64,000 bases of DNA from Spirosoma profusum. Its GTDB lineage: Bacteria > Bacteroidota > Bacteroidia > Cytophagales > Spirosomataceae. Positions 5,416-50,246 of this stretch are shown in pieces; the first letter of the stretch is position 1, and the number at the start of each line of letters is the position of its first letter. Position numbers and translations under genes: made by a program. The stretch lies in contig NZ_JACWZY010000016.1 in assembly GCF_014699005.1 (NCBI RefSeq), positions 1-64,000 on the forward strand, read 5' to 3'. The notes beneath the pieces are model-generated. The model saw only the letters and a program-made list of their open reading frames with translations. It was not told where the DNA came from and did not search any database.

Positions 5416-5418
5416 GCA

Positions 5419-5775: not shown

Positions 5776-5790
5776 TAAAGGTCTAAGAAA

Positions 5791-33476: not shown

Positions 33477-33488
33477 GGGTTTGTTGGT

Positions 33489-33964: not shown

Positions 33965-33993
33965 AAAAGCCCACTCGGTACGAGCAGGCTTTC
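33965..33993 (-). terminator. Terminator after the 48-bp-repeat secreted protein gene
   Basis: On minus: AAAGCC-tg-CTCG-tac-CGAG-tg-GGCTTTTTG, an interrupted 10-bp stem with T-run, 22 bp after the stop at 34015. Confidence 0.7.
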
Positions 33994-34014
33994 ATGTCAT
34001 GAAGACCGGGTTTC

Positions 34015-35748
34015 TTACTTCTTCTCCATAAACCGTTTTAACATTTCTTCCAGTTGGGTGACTTTGGCCTGCTGTTTCTCTAGTTCCGTCACTCGCTCTT
34101 TCAAGGCCTGATTCTCTTTCTGCTGTTGAATGCTATACAGCGTCAGTTCCTCAATCTTTTCCAGCAGCTTGGCATCCATCCTAGCTACGTCAACTCCCTT
34201 CTCAACTACCTCCTTTGCCGAGGGTATACCTGGCAAGTGTTTGTTAGTTTTGATGTAACGCTCTACCTCCGCCAGCCCTTTCAGTGTATACCCTTCATCA
34301 AATACCTTATCACTCCAATCGCTGGTGTTCTTTACCGCTACTTTAACTTTCTCGGTTAGAATCCCCTTACTTACAAACAGGTTGTAGTCTGACGGCGTTT
34401 TGCTCACCCCCTCCCCGATAATGACCGCATCATTCTGTGTACTTTGCAAAAACGAACCTTTTCGCTGCCAGAATGACTCTGCTACCCCTTCCCGAGTCGA
34501 CCCGTTATTACTGGCTAATATCACATCACCATTACTATTGACGGTGAGAAACTTGTACTGATTGGTTATTGAGGCAGGGGAGTTACTGGTTAGGTTGGTA
34601 AACCGCAGTCCCGACTGGCCAGAAGTCCCATGGGTAATCTCCAATTTGTTGTTGGGCGCCGTGTTACCAATGCCTACTTTCCAGAGCGGATTGGGAGCCC
34701 CTAACACAATCGAATTGTCGGCCGACACCTGAGCCGCCACCCCAATAGCCGTTGAGTTATTGACCACGGCACCTGGTGAGACTGCCGCATTCTGGCCAAT
34801 GAAGGTGTTGCTCTGACCCGCCCCATTGCCGGTGAAGCCAGCCCCATTGCCGATATAGGTATTATTCTGACCTGTGGTATTGCCATAGCCCGAGCCATTG
34901 CCAATGAAGGTGTTGCCTGCCCCCGAGGTCGTTTGCTGACCGGAGGAGTTGCCGATGAACAGGTTGTAGGAGCCGTTGCTGCTGGCGCCCGCGAAGGAGC
35001 CCATGAATAAATTGGCGATGCCGGTCGTGTTGCTGTAGCCCGTCTTGAAGCCGACAAACACGTTGTTGCTGGCGGTGGTGTTATTATACCCTGCCTGATA
35101 ACCCGAAAAAACGTTATTGGAGCCGGTAGTGTTGCTCAGGCCCGCATAAGTGCCCACAAAGCTGTCGTAATTGCCGGTGGTATTGCTGAAGCCCGTATCA
35201 TATCCCAAGAACACATTATCGGAGCCGGTGGTGTTGAAGAGGCCCGCAGCAGTACCCACAAAGCTGTTGTAGTTGCCGGTGGTGTTTTTGAGGCCCGCTC
35301 CAGTGCCCACAAAGCTGTTATTTCTACCCGTGGTATTGGCATCGCCCGCCTGAAGGCCCACAAAGCTGTTATTGTAGCCAGTGGTGTTGGCTCGACCCGC
35401 CATCTTCCCCACAAACACATTGCCGCCACCCGATGTATTGTTCAGGCCCGCTTCATAGCCTGCAAACACATTGCCGCTGCCACTGGTAGTCTGCTGACCA
35501 GCATCCACCCCGAAAAAACTGTTGTCATTCCCTGTGGTCAGGGCGCGGCCTGCCCCATAGCCCACTAGCGCATTGCGGATACCGGACAGACTGCCACTAC
35601 TGCCCGCCGTTGGCCCTACTATGGTATTAAAGCTACCATAGACTGGTGGGTTGTTGGTGTTGGGCGAGTTCACCACATAAGTGCTCTGGGCGAGCAGGAG
35701 ACCAGAAAGCAGCAGGAGCGGAATAAAGAGAAGTACGTGCTTAGCCAT
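34015..35748 (-). CDS. Secreted tandem-repeat protein with tail-fibre-like C-terminus
   Basis: A 577-residue protein with signal peptide (cleavage near LLLAQ). Residues about 55-320 are roughly 16 tandem copies of a 16-residue repeat (NTTGxxNSFVGxxAG), as in trimeric adhesin or fibre stalks. The second half has GNTAPNNKLEITHGTSG, then a region resembling intramolecular chaperone / tail-fibre end domains (GLAEVERYIKTNKHLPGIPS) and a C-terminal coiled coil (residues 525-577). Surface adhesin or fibre is likely. At DNA level the repeats are 48-bp units. Confidence 0.82.
   Translation of the reverse strand: MAKHVLLFIPLLLLSGLLLAQSTYVVNSPNTNNPPVYGSFNTIVGPTAGSSGSLSGIRNALVGYGAGRALTTGNDNSFFGVDAGQQTTSGSGNVFAGYEAGLNNTSGGGNVFVGKMAGRANTTGYNNSFVGLQAGDANTTGRNNSFVGTGAGLKNTTGNYNSFVGTAAGLFNTTGSDNVFLGYDTGFSNTTGNYDSFVGTYAGLSNTTGSNNVFSGYQAGYNNTTASNNVFVGFKTGYSNTTGIANLFMGSFAGASSNGSYNLFIGNSSGQQTTSGAGNTFIGNGSGYGNTTGQNNTYIGNGAGFTGNGAGQSNTFIGQNAAVSPGAVVNNSTAIGVAAQVSADNSIVLGAPNPLWKVGIGNTAPNNKLEITHGTSGQSGLRFTNLTSNSPASITNQYKFLTVNSNGDVILASNNGSTREGVAESFWQRKGSFLQSTQNDAVIIGEGVSKTPSDYNLFVSKGILTEKVKVAVKNTSDWSDKVFDEGYTLKGLAEVERYIKTNKHLPGIPSAKEVVEKGVDVARMDAKLLEKIEELTLYSIQQQKENQALKERVTELEKQQAKVTQLEEMLKRFMEKK
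34818..35540 (-). repeat. 48-bp tandem repeats inside the secreted repeat protein gene
   Basis: About 15 imperfect 48-bp units sharing AACAACAGCTTTGTGGG-like segments (on minus). Such arrays can expand and contract by recombination and so change protein length. Confidence 0.75.
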
Positions 35749-36088
35749 AAACGGTTTGCTTAAGGGGAGAAGGATTCATTTGACCAATTGACTCAATACC
35801 AGGTAGTCAAGTTAATAAATGGGCTAGATTAACATGAATCTTTTGATCAACCGGTCAGCCAAATTTAAAATTCGTCCTCTTTACTTAAGGGGTTGCCTGT
35901 TTATATTTTACAGTTGCTAACAAGAAAGGGCCATGTTTCAAACGCGACACTTTGCCCTCATGAACCCGTTACTTGTAGGTACGATGTACGTACAACGCCC
36001 GGACTTCACACTGTTTTATCACTGTTACCGGGCTATTCCTACCGACTCTATTACTGCTTTTGGCTTCCCGGCGCTTCGTTTCAATGGG
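35749..36088. other. 340-bp gap without a convincing gene
   Basis: Between the repeat-protein start and the NinB-like gene end. It should contain the promoter of the repeat-protein gene. A 71-codon frame on + (35933-36148) overlaps the 3' end of the opposite gene by 60 bp and has no family signal. No terminator hairpin is obvious. Confidence 0.4.
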
Positions 36089-36460
36089 TCAGGCTCGGCT
36101 AACTTTATCCCGTATTCTAGCTGCACCCAGGCCCGCACTTTCTCGTAAAAGTTCGAATCCATCGAGCGAGGCCGTAGAACCAACTACAGCCAGTGGCTTG
36201 CCGGCCACCTCCACGTAACTACTCAGGAACAGACTGCATAGCACCTTGTCTGCTTTCTCCCGATCAACACCGAGTAGCCTTGCAACCTCTACCAGCAAAT
36301 AACCCCAATAGTACCCGCGCTGGAGCGTTGAGGTAGTGGCTCGCTTGCGGCTTATTTCGACTGACCACAGGCCAGCAGGCAGGGCGCGAATGGCTTTATA
36401 TAACCGCCTGCGCGTTTTTAGCTGCGAGGTGTCCAGTAATATCCCTTTGTCCGTTGCCAT
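36089..36460 (-). CDS. NinB-like phage recombination-associated protein
   Basis: A 123-residue protein with the pattern RKRATTSTLQRGYYWGYLLV then EKADKVLCSLFLSSYVEVAG, resembling the lambda NinB/Orf-like family, in which a (S/T)xxQxxxYW motif precedes a helical nucleic-acid-binding core. These proteins assist recombination mediators in phages. The match is motif-level only. Confidence 0.5.
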   Translation of the reverse strand: MATDKGILLDTSQLKTRRRLYKAIRALPAGLWSVEISRKRATTSTLQRGYYWGYLLVEVARLLGVDREKADKVLCSLFLSSYVEVAGKPLAVVGSTASLDGFELLRESAGLGAARIRDKVSRA

Positions 36461-36599
36461 TAATATAAGTAATGAACTATATAATTATATAAATATAACC
36501 GTTTATCCTCCTTTTGCAAAATCCCTGCGTAGTGTTTTGAGTATACTTGCCATTTAAGCCACTTTTTAAGTCCGTAGACGAACGATCTATACAAACCTT

Positions 36600-37202
36600 A
36601 TGAGAACATACCTTTTGTTAATCGTGGGCTCTATGGTCGTTTTTGCATGTAACAGCGAAAAGCAGGGTGAAGAGTATAGACCTTTGGGGTATTACATGGA
36701 CCAATTGCCCACTATCAAATTATCTGAGTCAGGTAAAGCCAGGGCGAGGGCTGTTTGGGATTCAATTAGGCCCCTGCTCCCGGTGATACCATATGAAGGG
36801 AAGGTTATGTATGTCGGTGTAGATACCACCGAATTAAAGAGAGTGATTAGCCCTAGCCTGCGATTTAATTATGATTCATTAACTGGACCGTCAGCACTTA
36901 CCCTAAACATTACCTTTCAGAGAGAAGCAAAGGGTCCTGTTGGGGCCTTCTGGATAGGCGAAGAAACAATGGTGCCATGCTCCGGCAAGATTGAAAACAT
37001 TAGTATTGCTAGTTTCTATAGTCAAATTGTTGGGCCTGTTGAGGAACAGGCTATACTCGGATTAATTAACAGTAAGTTTGTTCGAGTTGACCGCAAACCA
37101 GAAAAATACACCATTACACCCGGACAGGCTCAGGCAATTGAAAAAGCAAGGCTAGGCTATGAAGCACTAACCCTGCTGAACAACCACCTCAATAAACCCT
37201 AA
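36600..37202 (+). CDS. Hypothetical lipoprotein
   Basis: A 200-residue protein with a lipoprotein signal peptide (hydrophobic residues 4-16, lipobox VFAC with Cys17). The mature part has no recognised domain. It is the only substantial + strand cargo gene besides IS200 within the element, and its stop abuts the convergent tape-measure stop with no gap (37202/37203). Confidence 0.65.
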   Translation: MRTYLLLIVGSMVVFACNSEKQGEEYRPLGYYMDQLPTIKLSESGKARARAVWDSIRPLLPVIPYEGKVMYVGVDTTELKRVISPSLRFNYDSLTGPSALTLNITFQREAKGPVGAFWIGEETMVPCSGKIENISIASFYSQIVGPVEEQAILGLINSKFVRVDRKPEKYTITPGQAQAIEKARLGYEALTLLNNHLNKP

Positions 37203-40058
37203 CTATTCACCTATGCCGTAAACCCGGTTAGAGTTTTGCGTACGACGAAGTGAGCCAACCAGGTCATTGCCCTCTAATCGCATTTTGCCACCGACCTCAA
37301 TATACATCCCGCCATTTGGTCCACTGAATGGCGTTAACTGAGTCAATGGCTGTGCGCCACGTAGCGAACCAAACGCCCCCATTTTATTCATTTCCTGCGC
37401 TATCAATCTGGCTCCCAAACCCACCGGCGCAATAAACTCTCCACCACCGCTTAGGGCTTTTTGGGACTCACCCACTTCAACAATAGCCCGCCCTGTAGCA
37501 AGTCCGCCACCTTCCAGACTTCCGGCTAATCCCTTCACGGCTCCACCGCCAACAATCAGCGCACCACCGGCAATAATACCGGCAGGCCCATCAAGTTTTA
37601 GTACGGCTGCCATAAACGGGAAGGCGGCTATAGCTGCGGTCAGGAGTGTACCCCCGACAATCATCGCCGTACCGATTCGTATCATAAAGTCTCCGAGTAA
37701 GTTCATAACCGACTGAAGGGCAATTTTTAAGGGGTTCTCTCCTCTGCCCAATCCCTCACCAATACCCTCCAGCATTCGGGCAGCTTCACCCGCCAAGGCA
37801 TCATGAGCGGCCTTCATGTCGCTCGCCATTTCTTCGGCGGTCTGCTTGACCTGCTTACCCTGGGCTTTCATCTGGTCGATACGTCGCTGAGCTTTTGCCA
37901 TCCATTTAGCATCATCCTCTCCAGAGGCTCCCGGATTCGTCTGAGCATCAGCCGCGCCAGCCGCACCTTCTGCCTGGGCTAGTAATTCTTTTAGCTTTTT
38001 CAGATCAGCCAGCAGTCCAGGAGGCAAAGCAAGCTTCGCGAGTGACATCGTGGCTATTGTCAGCTTAATCTCTTCAATCTTGGCCCGGTAATAATCTAAC
38101 CCCGGCGAGATTCGCTCAATGCCTGTTATAAAGCTGTTGATACCCGTTTTTGAGAATAACTCCGGTGTCGTATCAGCAAGTTCAAGAAAGTTGCGAAGTA
38201 TATTATCAACAGCCTCCTGAGTACCCTTCCCGGTAATTTCCTTAATGCCGGTAATATTTAGCCGAGGGGTAACGTTCGTCATGCCCTGTAGTGTTTCCAG
38301 TTCCCCTCGTACCGCCCGGAGTTTGACATACAGGCTGTTTTCGTCGTTGTTCTCCAGGCCCTGCATTTGAGCCGCTGCCTCTTTCTGAGAAAGCCCCTGA
38401 ATCTTCTTTTCCAGTTCAGCCTCGGTGCGACGCAAGAAAGCCTCTACCGAATCATCAACCTTAAGTTTCGGTTTGGTCTTTGTATCGGTAACGGGAGGCT
38501 TTTCTGTTTTAAGGGGCTTGCCTTCGGCAATTCGTATCTGATCCTGTAGGCGTTTAATCTCGGCTTCGCCTACTGTTTTATCCATCGCCTTCGCCTTGAT
38601 CTTCTCACGAATGGCAGCTATTTCTTTCTGATAGCCTTCAACGGTTAATCGGGTAAGTTCGGCTTGCTGAGCAGCCCCCTCATCATTAAGTGCATCTAAT
38701 TCCGCCTTCTGTTTCTTCAACTTCTCCCCACTCGTTTCAAGGAAATTAGCCGCGGCAGTCATGCCATTGTCTACATATACGCCCTGCCCTATGTGAACTT
38801 TCCCTTGTTTTGCTCCTAGTTCACGAGCCAGCGCAATCTTTTGGGCTTCAGTGAGCCTAGAGAGTTCGGCGGTGGACATTCCGGCGGCTTTAGCCAACTG
38901 CTCATAAACTTGAGCCTGAGCGCGAATGGTCTGGGTATATTCCTCCTGCTTACTGGTTAGCCGCTCCTGACTTACTGCCAGCCGTATCTTACGTTCGTAT
39001 TGATCGTTGACAGCAGCCAAACGTCGGGCTAACAAATCAGAATCAACCGACTCAGCATTGATTTGTCCTAGAAACTCAGGGTATTTCTGATTAAGCTGCG
39101 TTATCAGGTTGAGCCGAACGGTTTCATTATCATTAGCCAGGGCGATAGCGCCAACAAGTCCATTGATTTCGGTTTGCTCTTTACGTAGTTCCTCGGCAGG
39201 TGAAGCGGCTATTAGATCCGTTACAACACTCAAGAAGCTCGATGCTGCACCAACGGCAACTTTAAACGCACTCGCTACGCCAGCATTACCTAACACAACC
39301 AGCAGACGGTCGTAGCTATCGCTGAGGTTACTCACCATACCCTCCTGCGTCTGAGCAACAGCGGACATACTTCCGGCGACACCGGACATTTGGCCGAACT
39401 TCTCAATAGCTTTTGTTACGCCCTCGGTTGTTATATCAACCGTCTGATTCATCCCCTTGAAGGCTAGCCTCACCTGATCGCCAGACTTACTGGCACGAAT
39501 ACCGAACTCCTTTAGTCGCTCAAATTCGCCCGTTTGTGCATCTAGAATGGCCTCGGTTAGCTGATCGAATCCCTTGCCCTGTGAAGCGGCCAGATCGCCA
39601 AAGTTGGTAAGCTGTGCTTTTGAGGGGATAAGACCCCGGTTGACGAACTTAATAAACGAGCCCGTCAGTTCGTCTAGCTGGTTAGGGGTTTCAGCGGCAA
39701 AGTTGGTGAGCATGTTTAAGTTGGCTCTTGCTCCCGCCTGACTGCCTAGCCCGTTCTTAAGTATCGCGTTGTACTTCTCGAACTTGCCGCTGGTGGTAAG
39801 AATGGCATTGCCGAACTCCAGAACCTTATCGACCGTGAAGGCTTGCGCGGCCATTTTGAGGAGTTCCCCGCGAAGGCTAATCGCTTGCCCACTAAACCGG
39901 GTTGCAGATGCGCCCGCCCGATCAAAGCCCCCGGCTATTCTCCCCCCTGCTTGTACGGCTTGGTTGGCAATATCGCCAAAGAGTTGAGCCGAGCGGCGGG
40001 TACCAGCCTCTAACCTGGTTAAATCGGCTCCTATTTCTACACTAAAATTGCGATACAT
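37203..40058 (-). CDS. Phage tail tape measure protein
   Basis: A 951-residue protein. The N-terminal 250 residues have the TMP pattern (ADLTRLEAGTRRSAQLFGDI, GQAISLRGELLKMAAQAF, TNFGDLAASQGKGFDQLTEA). A long helical coiled-coil middle (380-750) follows, then hydrophobic segments (about 800-870) with IGTAMIVGGTLLTAAIAAF. TMPs set tail length and form a channel for DNA passage. It lies directly downstream of the tail assembly chaperone pair, the conserved tail-module order. Confidence 0.9.
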   Translation of the reverse strand: MYRNFSVEIGADLTRLEAGTRRSAQLFGDIANQAVQAGGRIAGGFDRAGASATRFSGQAISLRGELLKMAAQAFTVDKVLEFGNAILTTSGKFEKYNAILKNGLGSQAGARANLNMLTNFAAETPNQLDELTGSFIKFVNRGLIPSKAQLTNFGDLAASQGKGFDQLTEAILDAQTGEFERLKEFGIRASKSGDQVRLAFKGMNQTVDITTEGVTKAIEKFGQMSGVAGSMSAVAQTQEGMVSNLSDSYDRLLVVLGNAGVASAFKVAVGAASSFLSVVTDLIAASPAEELRKEQTEINGLVGAIALANDNETVRLNLITQLNQKYPEFLGQINAESVDSDLLARRLAAVNDQYERKIRLAVSQERLTSKQEEYTQTIRAQAQVYEQLAKAAGMSTAELSRLTEAQKIALARELGAKQGKVHIGQGVYVDNGMTAAANFLETSGEKLKKQKAELDALNDEGAAQQAELTRLTVEGYQKEIAAIREKIKAKAMDKTVGEAEIKRLQDQIRIAEGKPLKTEKPPVTDTKTKPKLKVDDSVEAFLRRTEAELEKKIQGLSQKEAAAQMQGLENNDENSLYVKLRAVRGELETLQGMTNVTPRLNITGIKEITGKGTQEAVDNILRNFLELADTTPELFSKTGINSFITGIERISPGLDYYRAKIEEIKLTIATMSLAKLALPPGLLADLKKLKELLAQAEGAAGAADAQTNPGASGEDDAKWMAKAQRRIDQMKAQGKQVKQTAEEMASDMKAAHDALAGEAARMLEGIGEGLGRGENPLKIALQSVMNLLGDFMIRIGTAMIVGGTLLTAAIAAFPFMAAVLKLDGPAGIIAGGALIVGGGAVKGLAGSLEGGGLATGRAIVEVGESQKALSGGGEFIAPVGLGARLIAQEMNKMGAFGSLRGAQPLTQLTPFSGPNGGMYIEVGGKMRLEGNDLVGSLRRTQNSNRVYGIGE

Positions 40059-40062
40059 GGCT

Positions 40063-40431
40063 TTACTGTGTCGATTTCTCTGAATACTCCTCTCGTACTA
40101 TCTCAGCACCCATTGCGGCCGCTAGGCTCATAAATGCCGCTTGTGCGTCCATCCCCTGTTGTCGGCTTCGCTGCTCATCATCCCAGGGTAGCGGCATAAA
40201 ATCGTATTCCGAAACCGAGTCTTTAAAGTGGGCGTTTCGGATTAGGGTTGCTATTCGTCGGCAAAGCCACATCAACAGTGTTTCCCTATCATTCTCACCC
40301 TCCCACATAGCAAAGGTTTCGGCTTGCGTCAGGTCAAAATATTGATCGGGCGAAATCTTGAGTTTTGCCAGTGAGCGAAACCGAAACGCCTTTACGGTTA
40401 AGGGTTCGCTGTCGCTACTTCCGGCGCTTCG
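40063..40431 (-). CDS. Tail assembly chaperone, frameshift-encoded C-terminal part (gpT-like)
   Basis: An open frame runs from the slippery site to TGA at 40063 with no start codon before an internal ATG at 40308, so it is probably made only by -1 frameshifting from the upstream gene. It encodes about 122 residues (LAKLKISPDQYFDLTQAETF, then NDRETLLMWLCRRIATLIRN). The arrangement, directly upstream of the tape measure gene, is that of lambda gpG-gpGT. The fusion would be 249 residues. Confidence 0.75.
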   Translation of the reverse strand, partial: RSAGSSDSEPLTVKAFRFRSLAKLKISPDQYFDLTQAETFAMWEGENDRETLLMWLCRRIATLIRNAHFKDSVSEYDFMPLPWDDEQRSRQQGMDAQAAFMSLAAAMGAEIVREEYSEKSTQ

Positions 40432-40811
40432 TTTTTTTTTGTTGAGTCCGGCTCCGGTATATCCATAGCCGCCCGGAATACCTCAGCACCTGCCTGCTCA
40501 ATCCACTCAGCCGCGTCCCACTCGGTGAAATCAATAGGCTTGCGCTGAGCAAGTGCTGCGTATTTAGCCGCCGAATAGTCCCACAGCCGCCATGCCTTCA
40601 AATAGCGGGGGGTGAAGGTGGGCACCTTAATCGGGTTCTTATTTTCGTCTACCCCATCAATCAGATCGGGCATTAGTGACTCGTCGATTTCGGCGAAGGT
40701 CTTAATGCCGGTTAATTCAGAGTATAGCTCAAGGGCACCGTTCGCGAACTTGAACTCTAACGTTTTACCATTCTCTAGGGTAATTTCTTTGTAGCCTGAT
40801 AGCTTATTCAT
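40398..40811 (-). CDS. Tail assembly chaperone (gpG-like), contains a programmed frameshift site
   Basis: A 137-residue protein beginning MNKLSGYKEITLENGKTLEF, with a TAC-type profile (small, acidic, helical, before the tape measure gene). Near its 3' end nine consecutive A residues followed by C provide the heptamer A AAA AAC in the correct phase (codons AAA AAA AAC, 40431-40437). A -1 slip enters the 122-codon frame down to 40063. Its start overlaps the stop of the HTH gene upstream by 8 bp. Confidence 0.8.
   Translation of the reverse strand: MNKLSGYKEITLENGKTLEFKFANGALELYSELTGIKTFAEIDESLMPDLIDGVDENKNPIKVPTFTPRYLKAWRLWDYSAAKYAALAQRKPIDFTEWDAAEWIEQAGAEVFRAAMDIPEPDSTKKNEAPEVATANP
40431..40437 (-). 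promoter_or_regulatory. Predicted -1 ribosomal frameshift site A AAA AAC
   Basis: Heptamer in phase with the tail chaperone reading frame, inside a run of nine A. The -1 frame downstream is open for 122 codons and the zero frame ends 11 codons later. No strong downstream hairpin was verified by eye. Confidence 0.7.
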
Positions 40812-41151
40812 TGGTTGTAGTGCTGTTTGTTTGGTGGTTCTGTTTTATCAGGTCAAGCAAGCCAGCCTCGCTAACCTTCAGAGCTTCGGGTAGCTGCACA
40901 AAGTGCGGACCCGATTCGCGTAGGTTTTTAATACCCCGAACCTGGAAAGCGTAAGCCTGCAATGCCTTTTCAGGGAATAGCACCTGTCCGCCATTTTTGA
41001 TAGAGGGGATTTTACCCGAGTTGGCCAGGTTGTAGAGGGTTGACTTCGCTTTGCCGGTTATCGTCTGGGCTATATCGATATTAACAATTCGATCTTTTTG
41101 CAGGAGTTGCTGAGCCGCGATTAAAGCCAGCCCGCTAATCTGCGAGGGCAA
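40804..41151 (-). CDS. Helix-turn-helix (excisionase-like) protein
   Basis: The frame ends at 40804 and contains IAQTITGKAKSTLYNLANSG followed by KIPSIKNGGQVLFPEKALQAYA, a helix-turn-helix of the excisionase/HTH_17 kind. An ATG at 41301 exists in frame, but the part above 41151 overlaps a better-looking gene in another frame, so a TTG start at 41151 (about 115 residues) is preferred. Alternatively, the two frames are halves of one protein joined by a +1 shift or broken by mutation. Overlaps the tail chaperone start. Confidence 0.55.
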   Translation of the reverse strand: MPSQISGLALIAAQQLLQKDRIVNIDIAQTITGKAKSTLYNLANSGKIPSIKNGGQVLFPEKALQAYAFQVRGIKNLRESGPHFVQLPEALKVSEAGLLDLIKQNHQTNSTTTNE

Positions 41152-41335
41152 TAGATCGATCGGGATTGATCTTAATTGCCTCAGCCATTTTAGTGATTTG
41201 CCCGATTTGCTCCGATATGATTTCAGAGAAGGCAATAAGGCTTTGGAGGGATTGCTGTTGCTGCTCCCGAAATCCTTCAAGTGCAGTAGCGAGTTGCTCA
41301 AATGTTTCAGCTATGTGTTGATTCTCCATTGTCAA
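41135..41335 (-). CDS. Small coiled-coil protein overlapping the HTH gene
   Basis: A 66-residue frame, MTMENQHIAETFEQLATALE then REQQQQSLQSLIAFSEIISE, strongly helical and Gln-rich. Composition suggests a true coding region. It overlaps the downstream HTH frame by 17 bp if the TTG start is used. It might be the N-terminal half of the same protein. Confidence 0.45.
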   Translation of the reverse strand: MTMENQHIAETFEQLATALEGFREQQQQSLQSLIAFSEIISEQIGQITKMAEAIKINPDRSIALAD

Positions 41336-41340
41336 TCTGT

Positions 41341-41607
41341 TTAAATGCCCGGAATATCATTTACACCCTGACCAATTGGGGCGGCCCGAAACTTGCGGGT
41401 AGCTGTTCTGGGGTAAGGATCGCCAGCAATCTCATCGGTACGACCGCAACGGGTGCAGGTGTGCGGAGTCTTACCCGCTACCGTTGGGCCTGATACGGCC
41501 ATCTTGCCCGCTGTTTTACAGTTGCCGCAAAAGAGATCTATTGAGTAGGTTCTTACCTCAAATACCGATTCGAGGTTAGGGTGCTTAGTAGGTCTTAATT
41601 TACACAT
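41341..41607 (-). CDS. Small zinc-ribbon protein
   Basis: An 88-residue protein with two CxxC pairs (FCGNCKTAGKM and HTCTRCGRTDE) spaced as a zinc ribbon. Such small ribbons are common in phage-like elements. It sits next to the IS200 left end, whose insertion left the start codon intact. Function unknown. Confidence 0.55.
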   Translation of the reverse strand: MCKLRPTKHPNLESVFEVRTYSIDLFCGNCKTAGKMAVSGPTVAGKTPHTCTRCGRTDEIAGDPYPRTATRKFRAAPIGQGVNDIPGI

Positions 41608-41611
41608 ATTG

Positions 41612-42150
41612 GGATGGGTGAAATCCCACGCCTTCAGGCGGCAACTTTAGTAGCTTTATGGGATGGATTATCGTACGGGCTCCCATAGTCGCTATGAGTT
41701 AAAAATTCACTTGGTCTGGATTACCAAGTATCGTAAACGTATATTGAAAGGAGACGTGTCCATTCGGCTACGGGAACTGATTCGAGAGATCTGCAAGGCC
41801 AACGAGGTGGTGATCGTAAAGGGTCATATTTCCTCGGATCATGTGCATTTGTTGTTGAGCTATCCGCCCACGATCTCGGTGAGTAAACTAGTTCAGTATC
41901 TAAAGGGGAAGAGTTCCCGCAAGCTATTGGGTGAATATGATGCGCTGCGTAAGGCGTTTTGGGGTCAGCATTTGTGGGCACGAGGCTACTTTGCGGCCAG
42001 CGTTGGTACAGTGACAGATGAAGTCGTAAAGGAATATATCGAAAAGCAAGACGTCTCCCCATCGGATGATGACTTCAAAATTAGTGACTGACTTTAGCGG
42101 GCTTCAGCCCTACTTTAAATCTATCGGCTTGAGCCGATAGTTGTTTAATT
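41612..42150 (+). mobile_element. IS200/IS605-family element (single tnpA)
   Basis: The tnpA gene is flanked by subterminal hairpins: on the left GGGAT...ATCCC and CGCCTTCAGGCG (about 41612-41642), and on the right GGGCTTCAGCCC (about 42098-42110) and the perfect CTATCGGCT-tg-AGCCGATAG (near 42121-42140). No tnpB is present. Exact cleavage sites cannot be set by eye. Confidence 0.75.
41663..42091 (+). CDS. tnpA: IS200/IS605-family Y1 transposase TnpA
   Basis: A 142-residue HUH/Y1 transposase. The HUH motif is H60-V-H62 in SSDHVHLLLSYPP, and the catalytic tyrosine is Y125 in DEVVKEYIEKQ. The N-terminal LKIHLVWITKYRKRIL strand is typical. These enzymes move as single strands by peel-and-paste. 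Full length, so potentially active. Confidence 0.93.
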   Translation: MDYRTGSHSRYELKIHLVWITKYRKRILKGDVSIRLRELIREICKANEVVIVKGHISSDHVHLLLSYPPTISVSKLVQYLKGKSSRKLLGEYDALRKAFWGQHLWARGYFAASVGTVTDEVVKEYIEKQDVSPSDDDFKISD

Positions 42151-43781
42151 CTGGCATAAAATCGGCTTCTTATTTCGTCCCTAAAATACCGATTTTACTT
42201 TGCAATTCAAAGTACTATTTCATTTTCGTACTTTAATTTTTGAGGAGGGTAGCAGCGGGGTTCTATTCCGTTTTTATTCCGTTAAACTGGCTAACTCATG
42301 CCGTTTCTATGCCGTTAGATTGGCAGCGGCTATGTCGTTTTCATGTTGTTAGATCGACATACCCATGTCGTTTTTATGTTGTTTTTTGAGGAGCCTGAGC
42401 ATATTGGATTTGTCCCATACAGCGAGGGGAGCGCTCACTGTTTTCTCACTGTTATTGCCTGGGGTCAACTTGATTTTGTCCCATTGAGAAGAGCGTTTTA
42501 TTACTGCTCTATTTCTGCTCTTGGGTTTGGTCTACTTGGATTTGTGCTACTCTGGAGGGGCGCGTGTTATGGACTCCAAAAACTCTATTCTGTCGGTGTA
42601 TCCTCGGTGTATTTATGAGCGTTACCTGTGTGCGTTGTGATGTCAAAAAATCTTCTGTTCACTGAGGGTGCCCTTTTTACCGAGTACAAAAACTCTTCAG
42701 CTATCTCTATACGTGTAATGACCGCCGAAAAATCTTCTAGTCATAGCTATGGCCTTTTTATCGTGGTAAAGAAACCTCGCTCGGGTGCGCGTAAGTGATC
42801 GTGAAAAAATCTTCTACGTGCGACAATGGCTCTTTTATCGGGCGGGGAAACTCTTGCCTGATCGGTGGAAAAGTAACGCAAAAGTAACGCTACCCTCGCG
42901 CGCGTTTTACCGTGTAAGAAAACTCTTCAGGAGGCAGGGAGTGGCGTTTTATGTAACGTATTGTAACGTCAGTATCGCAAGGGCAAGTGCCTGAACTTTA
43001 CATAAATCGTTACATCTCGCGTATTGCGGACTTCGAAAGCTCCGGAAAACCTAATAGTCAGGTGTTTAGTGACCTCAACGCTGAAAAATCGTTTTTAAAA
43101 ATGTGAGGTTTTGTGAGGTTTTGCTCAGGCGCGCATGATCGGGAATAAAAACACTTCAAGGCTCCGAAACGGGCGGTTTACCTTTTGTTTTGAGGTAGTG
43201 CCGGTACTACTGCCTAAAAACGTGCCTACAGGCTCAGTATTGAGGCTTTTGGGCATAAATCCACTACAGGGATCCGCTACGAAAAGTAAGGGTAAAGTAG
43301 GGATAAAAGTAACCCAAAAGTAAACCAATGTAAACCGGCGAATAAAAGCCTCGAAATGTTAGGTTTTGTTAGGTTCCAGGAGGGCAAAATGACAAGTTTT
43401 GACAAGTTTTTACCCCTGAAATGTCATCATTCTACCCCTCGAAACCATAACAAAGCATAACATTTGCCCTCGAAAGGTAAAGTATAGTAAAGTCACCAAT
43501 TGGTAAGCAGCACTTCGGCTTGCCAAAAACTCAGGTTTTCTCAGGCTCTGTACATCGACCGAGCGCGGATGCTACTACAGAAAAGCCAATAAAATGTAAG
43601 GTTTTGTAAGGTTTTCACTCTCTCTAGTGCAACTATCCTTTCGCTGCTAAATCACAGTAGATACACAGTAGATTTGAAAAAGCGGGGTATCTGGAGGGCT
43701 TGCGCGTTGTGGAGTCCGAAACTCCGGAAACTACCCCCGAAATGTTAACTATTGTAAACGCACCAAGAGGTAAGCGAGGGA
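42151..43781. repeat. 1.6-kb non-coding array of diverse direct-repeat doublets (10-11 bp period)
   Basis: No convincing ORF on either strand. About 20 places hold an 8-10-bp word repeated once at 10-11 bp spacing, with a different word each time: e.g. ATTCCGTT (42265, 42276), ATGCCGTT (42298, 42309), CTCACTGTT (42434, 42445), TCGGTGTAT (42593, 42604), GTAACGC (42873, 42884), TGTAACGT (42952, 42962), TGTGAGGTTT (43102, 43112), TGTTAGGTT (43357, 43367), GACAAGTTTT (43391, 43401), TGTAAGGTTTT (43595, 43605), CACAGTAGAT (43653, 43664). Many are preceded by a CCCYCGAAA-like leader. Flanks form diverged units of about 65-80 bp. Candidates are origin, partition or operator DNA. Confidence 0.75.
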
Positions 43782-44015
43782 TTACATCCGGCGTATCGGT
43801 CTACCTTGCCCCTTTGTAATCTGCTCATTGAGCAGGTCTAATACGGCGTCATTACTAAACATCTCCTCGGCTGAGGCAAAGCCCAGAATAGGCGCTACAC
43901 TTTCGGCATCAAAGAGAAGCTCTCCGGTTTTTCTGTCCCGCATCATCTTGACGGGCTTGCCCTGGAAGAAATCAACAAAGTATTCGTACTGACTATCGAA
44001 GTGAGTGCGTACCAT
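43782..44015 (-). CDS. Small phage BRO-N / antirepressor-like protein
   Basis: About 77 residues from ATG at 44015 (an upstream in-frame ATG at 44057 would overlap the next gene). The core VDFFQGKPVKMMRDRKTGEL then FDAESVAPILGFASAEEMF resembles the N-terminal part of BRO-type phage antirepressors. The similarity is short and not certain. It lies directly next to the doublet array and is the last gene of the replication operon. Confidence 0.45.
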   Translation of the reverse strand: MVRTHFDSQYEYFVDFFQGKPVKMMRDRKTGELLFDAESVAPILGFASAEEMFSNDAVLDLLNEQITKGQGRPIRRM

Positions 44016-44019
44016 TGGA

Positions 44020-44409
44020 TTAGATGTTAAAGGTTTTCTGTATGCGTTTACGGGCAATGTTGTAGGGCTTCATCAATTCATACCACTCATTTTGTAGCAT
44101 CGTATCGGCTACCGCATTGAGCACAAAAAGAATCATGTGGCGGGCGGCTGTTTCGTCATGGGCCAGAAAAGCGCGAATCTCCCGAAATACGTTGTGCAGG
44201 GTAGCAGGCTTACCGGCCAGATAGCGCCGAAGCCAGAACTCCACGCCATCCGCATAAGCCAGATAGTGACAGGCTTTCTCACTGACGCCCTGATAGACGC
44301 CTGCCTCCAGGTAGCGGGGAATGCCAATCAGGTAAGCGGTGATCTGAGCCGTGTTGAGTGTGGTATGCTCAAATTGCTGAGTGAGTCGGGGTAATGTGCG
44401 GGTGTTCAT
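44020..44409 (-). CDS. Hypothetical phage-element protein
   Basis: A 129-residue, mostly helical protein with no recognised family (LTQQFEHTTLNTAQITAYLI, then AARHMILFVLNAVADTMLQN). It overlaps the primase-like gene by 4 bp (ATGA type) and is followed 4 bp later by the BRO-N-like gene, indicating one operon with the replication genes. Confidence 0.55.
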   Translation of the reverse strand: MNTRTLPRLTQQFEHTTLNTAQITAYLIGIPRYLEAGVYQGVSEKACHYLAYADGVEFWLRRYLAGKPATLHNVFREIRAFLAHDETAARHMILFVLNAVADTMLQNEWYELMKPYNIARKRIQKTFNI

Positions 44410-45785
44410 GATTGCTGTTTGGTTGGTAAGGATGCAAGCCCGAGTTTATAAAACGGGCTTTCGGGGCTACGCTGCCAGACGGAATAATCACCGTTTTTAG
44501 GTTTGATTTCTTTGATTTGGGGCACCGCTCCGGGTGGGCTGGGCTCGTCTATTTCGGGCGGGTAATCTTCGGTGAAAGGTATATCGGCACCTACAGGAAA
44601 CTCCCGCTCAAGTTGCGACTCATCCGGCCGAAGGATAGAACCGGGATTGTCTAGCTGCTCAGCAATGGTTTTTACAATCAGCGGCTCTGGGCTGTCTGAG
44701 ACTTTTCTTACCACACTAAGAAAAGTCGGCTCCTCAGCGATAACCTCAGCCTCTATACGTCTGGTTGTATACTGAAATGGTTTCCACTCCGAAGCAGACT
44801 CATCGTTGAAGGGCTGTGCGGATACACTAACAGGCTGAGGTCGTCCTTTTCTAACTTCCCTTTTCCACGCCTGGGGTGGGTTTGGATTAACTTCAGGATG
44901 CACGGGCGAAGTCAAACCGTAGCGGATACCATCACGGATGGTTTTCTGAGATTTGGAAAACTGTGGCCATTCGCTGGCGGCTGTCTCTAAAGCAAGTACA
45001 GCAGTATCTTCGTCCATTCGGTCAGCAGCAATATACCCCCCGGCCAGCTTTGCCGCTTTGAGCAATGTTTCGTGGCGCTGCCCCTCGCCCGCCCGATCAA
45101 CAAACCGAATAAGCCGTTTTAGTAGGTTTTGCTGGTTGTCGTCTGAACTCCCACCGTAGTGAATTGGTCCACGTTTAGGTGCTGGTGGCGTATAGGTACC
45201 CTTCATCACCGATGCCTCATCATTAAGGTAAGGTGCCTCGTCGAAGGAAGCAAAGCGTAAATCGGTTGCATTACAACCCTTTGTGCTGTCAAGGGTTATG
45301 CCAAATCGCTCAGTGAATAGCTTCTGCAAATAGCGAAAATGAGCCTTCAGGGTTTCGGGTGTTTGATGGTCAGGCAGGCGGACAACGAACCAAAGTCCCC
45401 GACGTACCGAATAGGCACAAAGCAATACATAGGGTAAATTGGCAATGAGTTTTTTTAACTCAGCCATATCAACGCCCGGGTTGTCTTTGATATCGACATC
45501 TCCCATCAGCATCGACCATTGGTGAATAATCTTTTCCTCAATGGTGGAGCTGGCTTTGCGGTCTCTTAACAGAGCTACAGGCGTAAAAGCAGAGAGGTAT
45601 TTTTTTAGCTCATCCTGTTTTGCTTTCTCTACCTCAGCACATATTGCCTCAACTTGTGGCTGATAGTAGCGGGTGGTTGCCATTCGGCGCAAAGTGGTCT
45701 TTTGGGTTGGTACGTTGCCGAAGGAGTGGCGTTTGTGGTCGAACTCAAAGAAGCTGATAGGCAAGTCAAGCAGTGAGGGTGCCAT
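44406..45785 (-). CDS. Primase-like protein (VirE_N/BT4734-like plus PriCT-like)
   Basis: A 459-residue protein. Residues about 90-195 match the BT4734-like/VirE N-terminal domain of Bacteroidota elements, an AEP-primase relative: MGDVDIKDNPGVDMAELKKL, then SVRRGLWFVVRLPDHQTPE. Residues about 230-310 look like a primase C-terminal helical domain (RHETLLKAAKLAGGYIAADR). The acidic Pro-rich tail is unassigned. With the SF3 helicase upstream it forms the replication module. Confidence 0.75.
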   Translation of the reverse strand: MAPSLLDLPISFFEFDHKRHSFGNVPTQKTTLRRMATTRYYQPQVEAICAEVEKAKQDELKKYLSAFTPVALLRDRKASSTIEEKIIHQWSMLMGDVDIKDNPGVDMAELKKLIANLPYVLLCAYSVRRGLWFVVRLPDHQTPETLKAHFRYLQKLFTERFGITLDSTKGCNATDLRFASFDEAPYLNDEASVMKGTYTPPAPKRGPIHYGGSSDDNQQNLLKRLIRFVDRAGEGQRHETLLKAAKLAGGYIAADRMDEDTAVLALETAASEWPQFSKSQKTIRDGIRYGLTSPVHPEVNPNPPQAWKREVRKGRPQPVSVSAQPFNDESASEWKPFQYTTRRIEAEVIAEEPTFLSVVRKVSDSPEPLIVKTIAEQLDNPGSILRPDESQLEREFPVGADIPFTEDYPPEIDEPSPPGAVPQIKEIKPKNGDYSVWQRSPESPFYKLGLASLPTKQQS

Positions 45786-45833: not shown

Positions 45834-47522
45834 TTAGGGGTATGTATGTACTCGCGCACATATACACCCCCCAACAGGTGAAATGTTAAATGCTAAATGC
45901 ACGATTATTGAGGTTTCAGCGTAAAGGTGATATTGCGGGTATTGGCTCCGCGTTCGTATTTCCAGCCCTTTGGCGTACTGGGTGATGTTATTGGTAAAAG
46001 CCCGAGTAACAGTCTGATTGTCCGGCAAACCAGCAAACGCCTTATATTCCCGAAACAACTCATCTCGATTATACTCCTGATCCGGTACCAAACCTGTATT
46101 CTGATAGGTCGTCACCCATTCGTAGAACTCTTCACCCGCAACCTGCCGCAATCTGTTCTGATCGGCGCTACGAAGCGTGTAGGGTTGTAGCCCATCGCGC
46201 AGGTACTCCTCAACGCAACCAATCATGTATTGGTCGAAGCGTTGCCATTCTTCAGCATCCCAATCATCCGAGAAGAAAATACATCCGTGTTCAGCCTGAA
46301 TGGGCTTCTCATTTCCTCGTTTTATCTGGCGTTTGTAGTGATTACCAAACTCAATAATGAATTGCCGACGAATATTGCTCGACCCCTCATTAGGCATCAC
46401 CACGTTTGAGGAAATGAGCAATTTCGGCCCCTCCTTCGCGGGAATCCGGAAAGCCTTTTCGTGCTTGCGCTCGATGCTCCAGCCTTCAGTTAGTAGACTA
46501 AAAAAGCGTTCCAGGGTAAATCTCCGTTCGGCCTTAGGGTGGTTTACTACCGGATCATCAATCCACACAATAGCCGTATCTTCATTGACCTGCTGAAAGC
46601 AAAAGCGGTCGTTCTGATCGAATTTCTTTCCATCGATTACAGCAACCGGACGTATCTGCCGAATGGCATTACCAAACAACCCTTTGCCCGTACCGCCTTC
46701 AGGCTTTCGTGCATCGGTTATTTCCTCATCATAGCAGATGACCGCCTGTCCTTCGGCTGGGTTGCCGTAGTGGTGAATGAGGTAGCCGATGGCTGTTCGA
46801 AAGGATCTCAATCGGTCAGGTTCTCTATTGGTAATGTTGAGCAGGAAGAGGGCAAAATGACACTCCTCTCCGTTAGCACTGGGGTCGAATACTCGGTTAA
46901 TGACTTGCGATTTCCAAACACAACGATCCTGCAGAAAGTCATAAGGAAGTATCTTGACACTTCCGGCCTTAACTGCTATAATGCCATTTTTGTAAGGAAT
47001 GTAGCAGGCTGTCTCAGTATCGCGAAGCAACGGCCTGGCGTGGGTATGAAGCCCCTCCAGGTTTTTGGGGTTAACGGTTAGGTGTTGCTGGCGGTTGTAT
47101 ATCTCCAGTCTGCCCTCATAGGTTGCTGTGATGTAGTCAACGCTCAGCGGGTAGGGTTTTGACTCAATATAGGCTTTGAGACAGTCCCGCATGTTGGTGT
47201 CAATAACCGGCTCAATAATTGAATCACCCCGGATTAAAGACGTAGAGAAGTTATCCGGTCGGTACCGTTTGGCGAAAAGTAGCCCTTGTAGATATTCCAG
47301 TATACCGGTTCGGTAAAGTCCCGAAAGCACCCACTCCTGGGTTTTTGAATCTTTCTCGAACGTCCAAAGATCAATAGTTACTTCATCCTTTCGGATGAAA
47401 ATAATAGAAGCATCTCCATGCTCCGTTTCGTCAAAAACGAAATCACCCGACGATGCCAACTCCTTATCTGTCATATTGGAAATTGGCGGAATAGATGTAC
47501 CTTTAGCCTGCGCAGTCGTCAT
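45834..47522 (-). CDS. SF3-type / D5-like replicative helicase
   Basis: A 562-residue protein with Walker A PEGGTGKGLFGNAI (about 274-287), a Walker B-like TAIVWIDDP (about 309-317) and a sensor-like KLLISSNVV (about 360). This is the layout of phage/satellite primase-helicases (DUF5906 or VapE-like). It probably unwinds the element origin during replication. Its translation ends 49 bp before the primase-like gene. Confidence 0.8.
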   Translation of the reverse strand: MTTAQAKGTSIPPISNMTDKELASSGDFVFDETEHGDASIIFIRKDEVTIDLWTFEKDSKTQEWVLSGLYRTGILEYLQGLLFAKRYRPDNFSTSLIRGDSIIEPVIDTNMRDCLKAYIESKPYPLSVDYITATYEGRLEIYNRQQHLTVNPKNLEGLHTHARPLLRDTETACYIPYKNGIIAVKAGSVKILPYDFLQDRCVWKSQVINRVFDPSANGEECHFALFLLNITNREPDRLRSFRTAIGYLIHHYGNPAEGQAVICYDEEITDARKPEGGTGKGLFGNAIRQIRPVAVIDGKKFDQNDRFCFQQVNEDTAIVWIDDPVVNHPKAERRFTLERFFSLLTEGWSIERKHEKAFRIPAKEGPKLLISSNVVMPNEGSSNIRRQFIIEFGNHYKRQIKRGNEKPIQAEHGCIFFSDDWDAEEWQRFDQYMIGCVEEYLRDGLQPYTLRSADQNRLRQVAGEEFYEWVTTYQNTGLVPDQEYNRDELFREYKAFAGLPDNQTVTRAFTNNITQYAKGLEIRTRSQYPQYHLYAETSIIVHLAFNISPVGGCICARVHTYP

Positions 47523-47600: not shown

Positions 47601-47885
47601 CTAGTTAAGGGTTGCCTTAACGCCGAATTTTTCACACAAAGCCGCTATGTGTTCCTTGCGGTAGCGCAACACTGAGCCGATCTGAACGTAGCCAACAACG
47701 CCCTTCGCCCGCCAGATTTGGGCGGTCTTTTTGCTGACTTTCATAATCTGACAGAACTCCTCGTCGGTGTAGAGATACTCCCGATTTGAATCTGCAGTCA
47801 GCTTAGCTTGAGCAGATTCAATGTTAGAAATTGAGGATTGAATGTTGCGGTAATCGCTCTCTGGTAGAATGCAAACTGCTTCCAT
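47601..47885 (-). CDS. AlpA/excisionase-like helix-turn-helix protein
   Basis: A 94-residue protein. The C-terminal 55 residues form an HTH_17-like winged helix: YLYTDEEFCQIMKVSKKTAQ then GYVQIGSVLRYRKEHIAAL. Such proteins act as excisionase or as activator of integrase/replication genes in satellites. It lies upstream of the helicase gene and probably leads the replication operon. Confidence 0.75.
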   Translation of the reverse strand: MEAVCILPESDYRNIQSSISNIESAQAKLTADSNREYLYTDEEFCQIMKVSKKTAQIWRAKGVVGYVQIGSVLRYRKEHIAALCEKFGVKATLN

Positions 47886-48803: not shown

Positions 48804-50054
48804 TTACCCAAAGATTGATTCGAGTGCTTTGTCTGTTGTGTCAGTATCGAACTCAGATAAATACTTTTCGGTGATGTTAATTTTTGAGTGCCTGAGGAGC
48901 TTAGAAATTGCGTAAACGTCATTAATCTTTTTACGGCCTAAATCGGCAAAGGTGTGCCTAGCTGAGTGAAAAGAGAGTTCTCTAGGGATACCAGCCAAAA
49001 AACATATTTTCTTGAGATACCTATTGATGAGCGCATTTTTCCGGCTGACTTCCTTTAGTATATCAACGTCTGCGTCATAAGTCCGTTTGGCGCTCATAAT
49101 TGGGAACACAAAGCCCTCCGGGTCGATCTTCTCTGGTTGGTAGTGCCTTATGATTTCCTCGGCCTGCTTGGGTAGCTGTATAGAGTGACTCTTTGTGACG
49201 GTGGCCTTTGTTTTCCACATGACGTAAGAGAGCCGATTGTCGTTAATGTTTTTCCATTGCAAACAGCATATATCACTAAATCGCATTCCGGCCATATAGA
49301 ATGCACATAGCCAGTAGTTGCGGGTATGCCACAGCAAAGATCCCTCGGGTAAGGATACATTACGAAAGGTTTCTAGTTCTCCCTCTGTTAATCGTACTCG
49401 GTCCGGCTTGCCCTCTTTTAATTTGATTAATAGAAACGGATTGTCCTGGATTGGTACTAATCCCTCTTTCACGGCCTGATTGAATACGGCCCTGATTTTA
49501 GAGAAGCCTGTCCCTATAGTATTGGTTGTGTTCCCCTTTTTGGTACGCAACCATTGCTCGTAATCGGTTAGCAGCTTAACCGTAATATCTGAGAAGAAAA
49601 GTTCTTTGTTGTCGACGTATTCTAGAAGCTTATTAATTTCGGATCGGACGTTGCGCTGAGTATTGTAAGGCTTATTGGATAGATACTCGTATGCGTACTG
49701 AAAAAAGTAGGCAGAGGAGCGACCTTTAAGGTTTTCGGCGATTACCAGTGAGGTAACATTTTTAGTATCAGCTTTCAGGCGAATCGCGTCCGATTTGATA
49801 GCATCTATCTTTTTATTGATTACCTCGTGCAGTACATAGGAACGTCTTACTTCTTTCTTATTAGGGTTCCAATCCTTCAGGGGGATATCAAAACCGATGT
49901 AAACTCGGCGGTGTTGACGGTTCTCGGTTATACGCAGATACAAGGCATATCGCCCATCTTTTTTAGGCTTGTTGCCCAGCTCAACAGTAAAGGATATGGT
50001 GTTGGTCTTAGCGCGTCCACTGGCAGGCGCGTTATCAGGTTTGGGCTGGCTCAT
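48804..50054 (-). CDS. int: Tyrosine recombinase / integrase of the element
   Basis: A 416-residue phage-type integrase: an arm-binding N-terminal domain (about 15-100, GRYALYLRITENRQHRRVYI), a SAM-like core-binding domain (110-205), and a catalytic domain with R258 (AGMRFSDICCLQW), a Lys near 281-288, H363-R366 (HSARHTF), H389 (LLRHSKINI) and the nucleophile Y398. The gene is 170 bp from attR and reads away from it. The arm doublet lies just upstream of its start. Confidence 0.94.
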   Translation of the reverse strand: MSQPKPDNAPASGRAKTNTISFTVELGNKPKKDGRYALYLRITENRQHRRVYIGFDIPLKDWNPNKKEVRRSYVLHEVINKKIDAIKSDAIRLKADTKNVTSLVIAENLKGRSSAYFFQYAYEYLSNKPYNTQRNVRSEINKLLEYVDNKELFFSDITVKLLTDYEQWLRTKKGNTTNTIGTGFSKIRAVFNQAVKEGLVPIQDNPFLLIKLKEGKPDRVRLTEGELETFRNVSLPEGSLLWHTRNYWLCAFYMAGMRFSDICCLQWKNINDNRLSYVMWKTKATVTKSHSIQLPKQAEEIIRHYQPEKIDPEGFVFPIMSAKRTYDADVDILKEVSRKNALINRYLKKICFLAGIPRELSFHSARHTFADLGRKKINDVYAISKLLRHSKINITEKYLSEFDTDTTDKALESIFG

Positions 50055-50224: not shown

Positions 50225-50246
50225 GTTCGATTCCCGCTCCTGGTAC
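50225..50246 (+). other. attR: right attachment repeat
   Basis: Exact 22-bp copy of the tRNA-Leu 3' end (see 25595-25616). Beyond it lies the displaced native tRNA terminator. Within 50055-50510 there is otherwise only the arm doublet, this repeat, two terminators and a doubtful 38-codon frame at 50338-50454. Confidence 0.92.

Follow-up and report, generated by a model that had tools for sequence, protein, structure and literature searches.

The region 25595-50246 of Spirosoma profusum contig NZ_JACWZY010000016.1 is, in our judgement, probably an integrated phage satellite, and the non-coding array that it carries a library of pac-like sites used for its packaging by many different helper phages. 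Some two dozen short tandem repeats, each different, make up the array; most of them are doublets of a word at a period of 10 or 11 bp, and the classes into which these words fall correspond to sites found in or near the small-terminase (TerS) genes of phages. The evidence is presented below for the window, by which we mean the whole stretch of 64,000 nucleotides analysed (positions 1 to 64,000 of the contig), and for related loci in genomes of the host family and in viral contigs.

The doublet array and the element that carries it

Within 42260-43765, exact match runs of at least 7 bases were observed eight times at lag 10 and eight times at lag 11, and not once at any of the remaining lags among 4-21. 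When this segment was resampled with a first-order Markov model, the runs of at least 7 bases at these two lags together numbered 0.21 on average and 3 at most in 2000 trials, in comparison to the 16 observed, and for runs of at least 8 bases 12 were observed where 0.06 are expected by the same model. In the remainder of the 64-kb window, 1.5-kb stretches that did not overlap the array contained at most 2 such lag-10/11 runs of at least 7 bases. The first-pass annotation, which had described the array from the letters alone and proposed a lag autocorrelation as a check, is thus borne out in that the doublets are real, with an excess at lags 10 and 11 over both the shuffles and the rest of the window; comparison of the pairs also confirms that the word differs from pair to pair, and that the left part is mostly of lag 11 and the right part mostly of lag 10 (Table 1). 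Its description in terms of pairs needs amendment in two respects, as the middle part (about 42640-42932) is built of another unit, AAAANTCTTC, and most of the words fall in recognisable classes instead of being arbitrary. The unit AAAANTCTTC is present in 5 copies in the array, all on the + strand, versus 1 in the other 62.4 kb (both strands).

When used as a query against its own 8.7-Mb genome, the array was found to occur once. A scan of 41000-44500 against Rfam gave no match at E up to 1, and at a threshold of E 1e-5 blast with the array as query likewise yielded no match among plasmids and phages. The orientation of the pairs is mixed, with 5 on the + strand, 9 on the - strand and 2 ties. 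A coding explanation of the pairs was considered and rejected, the periods of 10 and 11 not being multiples of 3. The array is also unlike a decayed protein gene, which had been named as a possible source of the pairs, because its matches to terS genes (see below) are short and drawn from many different genes.

Table 1. Positions in the window of the parts of the array and of the main features of the element 25595-50246.
Feature	Position	Strand	Remarks
att repeat, copy 1	25595-25616	+	22-bp exact repeat; 3' end of tRNA-Leu 25530-25616; tRNA-Leu(taa) by ARAGORN
Large Ig-domain protein	29490-33476	-	weaker tail and head-decoration matches
Tail-spike / virion-structural-like protein	34015-35748	-	phrog_4636, phrog_6002, phrog_23837
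Tape measure protein	37203-40058	-	phrog_5062, phrog_1716; PF20155 below its cut-off
137-aa protein, position of tail assembly chaperone	40398-40811	-	position only; no family match
165-aa HTH_17 protein	40804-41301	-	family match
IS200-like Y1 transposase beside array	41663-42091	+	PF01797, E 6.5e-45
Left part, lag-11 doublets of DUF5681 class	42264-42612	-	42264-42283, 42298-42316, 42332-42350, 42365-42383, 42434-42453, 42504-42521, 42593-42612; pairs at 42332 and 42365 imperfect (read from sequence)
Middle part, five AAAANTCTTC units	42646-42932	-	units at 42646, 42689, 42728, 42805, 42919
Lag-11 pair AAAAGTAACGC x2	42869-42890	+	by eye like upstream sites of Terminase_2 genes; class uncertain
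Right part, lag-10 doublets of Terminase_2 class	42952-43759	-	42952-42969, 43102-43123, 43320-43336, 43357-43375, 43390-43410, 43446-43462, 43477-43493, 43530-43545, 43595-43615, 43743-43759; the last imperfect (read from sequence)
Right part, lag-11 pairs, class uncertain	42952-43759	-	43283-43299, 43305-43323, 43653-43673
91-aa protein flanking array	43782-44057	-	one gene before TerS in L033 and G000:C17
129-aa protein	44020-44409	-	homologues in array loci L184, L197
459-aa conserved protein before packaging slot	44406-45785	-	matches in 23 of 99 genomes searched, own included
DUF5906 protein (presumably replication primase/helicase)	45834-47522	-	PF19263; 68% and 70% identical (best segment) in L002 and L033
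HTH_17 protein, excisionase-like by position	47601-47885	-	PF12728; phrog_10045; two weak baseplate-wedge matches
Tyrosine integrase	48804-50054	-	PF00589, PF13102, PF17293; phrog_1
att repeat, copy 2, right end of element	50225-50246	+	22-bp exact repeat of 25595-25616

The element is 24.65 kb in length and it is bounded by a 22-bp exact direct repeat at the 3' end of a tRNA-Leu gene; a search limited to 33000-37400 found no such repeat, which was detected when the range was 20000-42000. Two characteristics expected of a satellite are present. The first is an integrase together with a defined attachment site. The second is that, when the 20 ORFs of 25595-50246 were compared with PHROGs, no portal, major capsid, TerS or TerL match was obtained; several of the ORFs had no match of any kind, and the ORF 40063-40308 was covered by the Pfam scan only. 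Two tail- or surface-like proteins of the element match "head decoration" and "virion structural" families, and it additionally contains an rve transposase and some other genes. Searches of the host's own genome gave no Terminase_2 or DUF5681 match.

Correspondence of the array words with small-terminase genes

The lag-10 pairs of the window match doublets that are located inside, or just upstream of, the TerS genes of the Terminase_2 family. The pattern TGTNAGGTTTTGTNAGGTTTT, which on the other strand reads AAAACCTNACAAAACCTNACA, corresponding to the codons E-N-L-T-K-P-[NDHY]-I, has at least 120 exact matches in viral contigs. Among the 120 matches listed, 104 lie within a called ORF and 97 have an open NLTKP frame with a TerS-like "AG[YFW]" motif within 25 residues upstream, as in Terminase_2 proteins; as the pattern itself forces NLTKP, only the upstream motif counts as evidence. 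In 66 unique copies from the matches listed, the two free bases of the pattern are equal in 45, versus 18.4 expected if they were independent, one of them being the silent third base of the Leu codon and the other the first base of a variable residue. A second set of TerS genes was assembled by protein similarity, with queries taken from the pattern set, from which it is hence not fully independent. It comprised 80 loci, of which 51 had the motif as found by expression and 29 were dropped, leaving 24 after deduplication at 85% and 42 at 95%. In the 24 loci, lag 10 stands out among the lags 6-14, with matches at 8.1 of 11 bases where the remaining ones have 1.7-4.9, and the N and K codons are always AAC and AAA, respectively. 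The third base of the Leu codon equals the first base of the next residue's codon in 14 of these 24 (9.0 expected, p 0.009), which is weaker than in the pattern set, and in 26 of the 42 retained at 95% (19.3 expected, p 0.002).

In genomes of the host family, an HMM search for Terminase_2 yielded 36 matches, from which 30 loci were used, 28 of them remaining after deduplication. The doublet is kept at the same place in different proteins with other words (LLTNVDV, NLTKLNI, ENLRKPEI), and several of the loci without an in-gene doublet have one 17-34 bp before the start of the domain. With runs of at least 7 bases, lag 10 was observed in 13 of 28 loci (8 in the gene and 5 upstream) and lag 11 in 0 of 28, with small peaks at lags 12 (2/28) and 13 (3/28); with runs of at least 6, a doublet was present at the two positions in 16 of 28, and 12 of 28 lacked one even then. 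The TerS of SPP1/SF6 is one that we take to belong to Terminase_2. For the SF6 TerS domain, a weak preference for 5'-TTAGGTT-3' was measured by SPR (affinity about 350 uM), at a site outside the known box repeats (PMC4737164), and this heptamer is the core of the commonest doublet in our array analysis. The lag-10 doublets of the array, which lies outside any terS gene, carry a pac-like feature in the form of words of Terminase_2 terS genes.

A permissive blast of the array against isolate phages (E up to 10) resulted in 36 matching records, of which 15 match annotated TerS genes with E 0.5-6. These 15 represent 8 phages, several of which are present twice; among the remaining 21 records are matches without annotation, to hypothetical genes or to unrelated ones. 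The stretch common to the array and the phage TerS genes by blast is just about 20-35 bp around the site. These observations bear upon a reading in which the array, without a function at present, is a patchwork of fragments that recurrent recombination with phages has left behind from terS genes and the regions upstream of them. This reading is favoured by the in-gene sites being terS codons and by the IS200-like transposase gene that adjoins the array. We find it highly improbable in view of the shortness of the common stretch, the origin of the DUF5681-class and some of the Terminase_2-class sites from outside the gene, and the half-sites that are still identical in 16 pairs, far above chance.

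The lag-11 pairs of the window were found to match doublets located 16-34 bp upstream of genes for DUF5681 (PF18932), a family suggested by two array elements in the genome G034, each of which has a DUF5681 gene beside its array. An HMM search of 200 family genomes gave 27 DUF5681 loci, 25 without the two G034 satellites and 24 after deduplication. Within 60 bp upstream of these genes, runs of at least 7 bases occur at lag 11 in 14 of 24 loci, at lag 10 in 2 of 24 and at the other lags in 0-1, and 9 of the 24 have no doublet even with runs of at least 6. Of 80 viral DUF5681 loci, 76 were used (four near a contig end were dropped) and 62 remained after deduplication; lag 11 was found in 39 of the 62 and the other lags in 0-2, with 20 of 62 lacking a doublet at runs of at least 6. 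The lag-11 words vary in concert in their two halves (ACAACGA, ACAGCGA, ACACCGA, AACAGAA). The gene that follows the viral DUF5681 gene is TerL in 7 of 7 cases scanned, so that DUF5681 lies directly upstream of TerL, and of 28 next ORFs inspected by eye, 27 are TerL-like, the exception being L436. The relatives of DUF5681 in PHROGs (26239/4114) are of unknown function, and an AlphaFold2 model of the protein was poor (mean pLDDT 63, pTM 0.33). Based upon gene position and the upstream doublets, DUF5681 is probably a small terminase family that has so far not been recognised as such.

The exact lag-11 word TATTCCGTTTTTATTCCGTT had 0 matches in viral contigs and was found at two places, L200 and L260, with no terminase in view, and the degenerate lag-11 pattern AACRGNRATRNA x2 matched in the 200 genomes solely in G034, at six places in its two array regions. 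In L260 (6097-6125), AAACGGAATAA is present in about three copies at an 11-bp period between two genes of no evident phage character. In a single prophage region of G028:C1 (L278, L301, L225), a Terminase_2 gene with a lag-10 doublet lies between two DUF5681 genes, each of which has a lag-11 doublet of its own.

The specificity of these matches was assessed with scrambled words that keep the doublet form. The 8 lag-10 pairs of the window matched the Terminase_2 words better than 200 of 200 scrambles, and the 8 lag-11 pairs matched the host DUF5681 words better than 199 of 200, whereas the crossed comparisons between classes were ordinary (151 and 149 of 200 scrambles were as good). The left/right division of the array is therefore largely a division by terminase family. 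The period of the doublet is fixed by the protein family, being 10 bp for Terminase_2 and 11 bp for DUF5681. Three of the lag-11 pairs, AAAAGTAACGC, AAAAGTAACCC and CACAGTAGAT (at 42869, 43305 and 43653), scored low in both classes.

The middle units resemble the antisense of the codons E-[ED]-F-x-x-x-[IV]-[TK]-R of PF16677 terS genes from prophages of the family, with E 8.5e-5 to 1e-3 by local blast against 20 loci. In a comparison with 15 PF16677 segments from 19 loci, the best ungapped matches of three of the units cover 20, 22 and 23 of 25 bases (scrambled maximum 16-18), and the units at 42646 and 42805 are marginal, with 17 and 18 of 25 (scrambled maximum 17). No consistent period-10/11 pair was detected in the PF16677 genes themselves, except in the satellites L250/L251, and the assignment of the middle class therefore rests on similarity. 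Three classes of sites, viz. Terminase_2, DUF5681 and PF16677-like, would thus lie side by side in the array, the third by virtue of this similarity.

The DUF5681 doublets and some of the Terminase_2 doublets precede the start of the gene or domain by 16-34 bp, a location that would also suit operators, i.e. sites by which TerS regulates its own gene in phages, the array then binding TerS for a regulatory purpose such as sensing the presence of a helper. This we regard as very unlikely, 8 of the 13 Terminase_2 doublets (runs of at least 7 bases) being inside the gene.

Proposed packaging by several helpers and comparison with known systems

The likely ligands of the doublets, judged by their words, are the TerS proteins of other phages. 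The word classes track TerS families of phages, and the RHH and HTH proteins of the element itself, which had been put forward earlier as possible ligands, are not the likely ones. TerS proteins assemble into rings from which HTH motifs are presented (PMC4737164). In the mechanism that we propose, each doublet would be the element read by the TerS ring of one phage, with neighbouring HTH units placed one helical turn apart. The ring being a homo-oligomer, both half-sites would carry the same word, and as different phages have different words, every doublet would differ while the architecture stays the same. During the activity of a helper whose TerS fits one of the doublets, the TerS-TerL of this helper would load on that doublet in the satellite DNA, and the satellite would thereby be packaged into the heads of the helper. 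Both the binding of TerS to the doublets and the packaging that would follow from it are inferred from sequence comparisons. In its general form, the proposal is that TerS proteins of several families read doublets of a period fixed for the family, that the word is a private packaging code of the phage, and that satellites carry multi-entry libraries of such words for dozens of unrelated helpers; we favour it with moderate confidence. Uniform polarity of the sites was at one stage considered as proof of directional packaging and was dropped, since the window array and several others are mixed in orientation, an observation that gives no help to the packaging model.

A PICI in the strict sense has a PICI-type repressor and a conserved PICI gene order. 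The window element resembles the PICIs/SaPIs in being integrated and in having an integrase and its own replication genes but no capsid set. These elements, which have a helper-like cos/pac site or a TerS/Rpp of their own, hijack the packaging of the helper by a DNA signal and a protein that alters TerS, those described in PMC9026076 having one cos each together with Rpp, whereas the window element has about two dozen sites for three TerS families in one array, and no TerS of its own was found in it. The PICMIs, minimal satellites of the Vibrionaceae, similarly have no terS and are packaged by the helper in a headful-like manner (PMC10803314); for them, neither a cos or pac in the helper nor a redirecting gene in the satellite is identified there, in contrast to the explicit candidate sites of the window element, which also has other genes. 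In the pac sites of the SPP1/SF6 type, a TerS with an HTH ring is combined with direct repeats at and near terS (PMC4737164). The doublet differs from these published box repeats in that its two halves are spaced by one turn, that it is located within terS or immediately ahead of it, and that its word varies between phages. The R-sites of lambda cosB are likewise repeated short sites read by the HTH domains of TerS (PMC9026076); unlike the doublets, the R sites have an IHF bend between them and resemble one another closely in sequence. No arrays of this kind are described in the titles and opening lines of abstracts of the open-licence papers found on satellites, multi-site packaging and DUF5681.

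The array would represent a satellite strategy in which a stock of sites for many helpers takes the place of one site or one redirecting protein. How TerS selects its own genome is described as poorly defined, with weak measured specificity (PMC4737164); the doublet rule offers a concrete and testable DNA code that predicts packaging specificity from sequence, and it is this rule that makes DUF5681 a candidate unrecognised small terminase. If the proposal is correct, one element could be packaged by many kinds of phage, its helper range could be read from its sequence, and a reading of the array would list the phages that its lineage has met.

Arrays in other genomes and the packaging slot

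A blast of the array against the 200 family genomes gave short matches, several of which were clustered in other genomes. Of the 19 short loci kept, 10 (L045, L046, L047, L048, L050, L051, L053, L054, L056 and L058) have at least 4 lag-10/11 pairs of at least 7 bases within 1.5 kb (range 4 to 14). With a minimum run of 6 bases, the scan was extended to larger pieces, which comprised 20 regions, and to three viral contigs. Convincing arrays were observed in L184-L191, L193, L194, L197 and the viral contig L124. The clusters in L192, L196, L202, L203, L126 and L159 are looser or consist of simple repeats, and no array was observed in L195 and L198-L201. Eleven of the convincing array loci, all but L191, were taken further. 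Exact window words recur in 9 of these 11, based upon the top three matches per word: the word at 42264 in L187 and L188, those at 43102 and 43305 in L184, that at 43357 in L185, L194 and L124, and that at 43595 in L186, L189 and L190. This sharing is partly by construction, as most of the loci were found by similarity to the window array or, in the case of L124, by one of its words.

The replication genes of the array loci are unrelated to each other, being a DUF5906 primase in the window, a primase/DnaB-like fusion in L184 and a DnaB-like gene in L187; a replication protein of about 400-500 aa (FAM2) is present in six array loci. Iterons are copies of one word. An iteron-type replication origin, or a partition centromere, read by a protein of the element itself has in its favour that the arrays often lie beside replication genes. 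Such an origin or centromere is hardly credible here, the words differing between pairs and matching terminase-associated sites of phages, and unrelated replication proteins being found in loci that nonetheless have words in common (in part, as stated, by construction). Hence, of the interpretations offered in the first-pass annotation, origin and centromere are not upheld, and the library of sites for different partners with helically phased half-sites is the one that the comparative evidence supports, the decoy-site array that was also offered there being a serious rival (see below).

Several array loci show further peculiarities. In L197 (6070-6105 and 6630-6670) array words are present in more than two tandem copies, including ACTTTACAAA x4. 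Neighbouring doublets with similar flanks in L189 (5195-5260) and L190 (3484-3540) have a word that differs in both halves (CTTAAC vs CTTCAC), which suggests a paired change of the half-sites. A cluster of 15 lag-10 pairs is found at 5065-6338 of the metagenomic viral contig L124, which has integrase, primase, ERCC4 nuclease and HicB-like genes. We take L124 to be a Firmicutes-like element by its appearance, and the strategy may therefore cross phyla. In L202 (7991-8040), AATTGCA is repeated at an 11-bp period near a 459-aa homologue (G052).

The satellite reading with packaging by helpers is also informed by the genes that occupy the place of the array in relatives of the element. Of its three closest relatives by primase, two carry TerS or TerS+TerL at this location. 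In L033, TerS and TerL follow the 459-aa and 91-aa genes and are succeeded by a 1099-aa protein without a match, and in L002 a TerS is in the array's place, followed by a tape-measure-like protein; in the third, G037 (L384), neither TerS nor TerL was detected by tblastn with 24 query proteins. The nearest named record is Larkinella terrae, and no array was found in L002 and L033, the nearest named or viral relatives. Larkinella is a genus of the Bacteroidota. In 19 other regions around 459-aa homologues, TerS-type matches follow in four (G050:C16, G052:C20, G020:C11 and G000:C17), and in G000:C17 there is a TerL as well as a tape measure. In G001, a nearby gene on the opposite strand encodes a Terminase_4 protein (from a scan of one of two similar ORFs), and G034:C22 has a tape measure together with an ORF that is HNH-like by eye. 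In 13 of the 19 regions, no terminase or tape measure gene was detected by tblastn with the 24 queries, some of these having restriction genes instead. A PF16677 TerS, followed by an ORF that by eye is TerL-like, was found in G034:C16. The slot after these genes is thus often, but not always, a packaging module, and in the window it is occupied by the array. In view of the 13 regions, this argument rests on few relatives, and our confidence is slightly lower on that account.

The same evidence on site classes would be expected if the array were a sponge, its sites titrating the TerS of incoming phages and blocking their packaging as a defence, and not packaging the element. The concentration of many sites in one stretch suits titration, as do the two orientations found together in the window array and several others (+:- is 6:6 in L197, 7:4 in L124, 6:3 in L184 and 2:3 in L194) and an element that has tail genes and no terminase match of its own. 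We nevertheless consider such a decoy unlikely. TerS with or without TerL in the same place in L033, L002 and G000:C17 suggests that the element is packaged, a PF16677 TerS adjoins the array in two of the array loci (L189 and L190), and a single-copy integrated decoy would presumably be weak unless the element replicates.

Lastly, the window satellite and its relatives G000:C17, L002 and G034:C22 have their own tape measure protein but no head module, and a tail-spike-like gene in the absence of a head module is present in the window satellite and in G000:C17. It is as if these genes served the satellites to re-measure or re-tip the tail of the helper.
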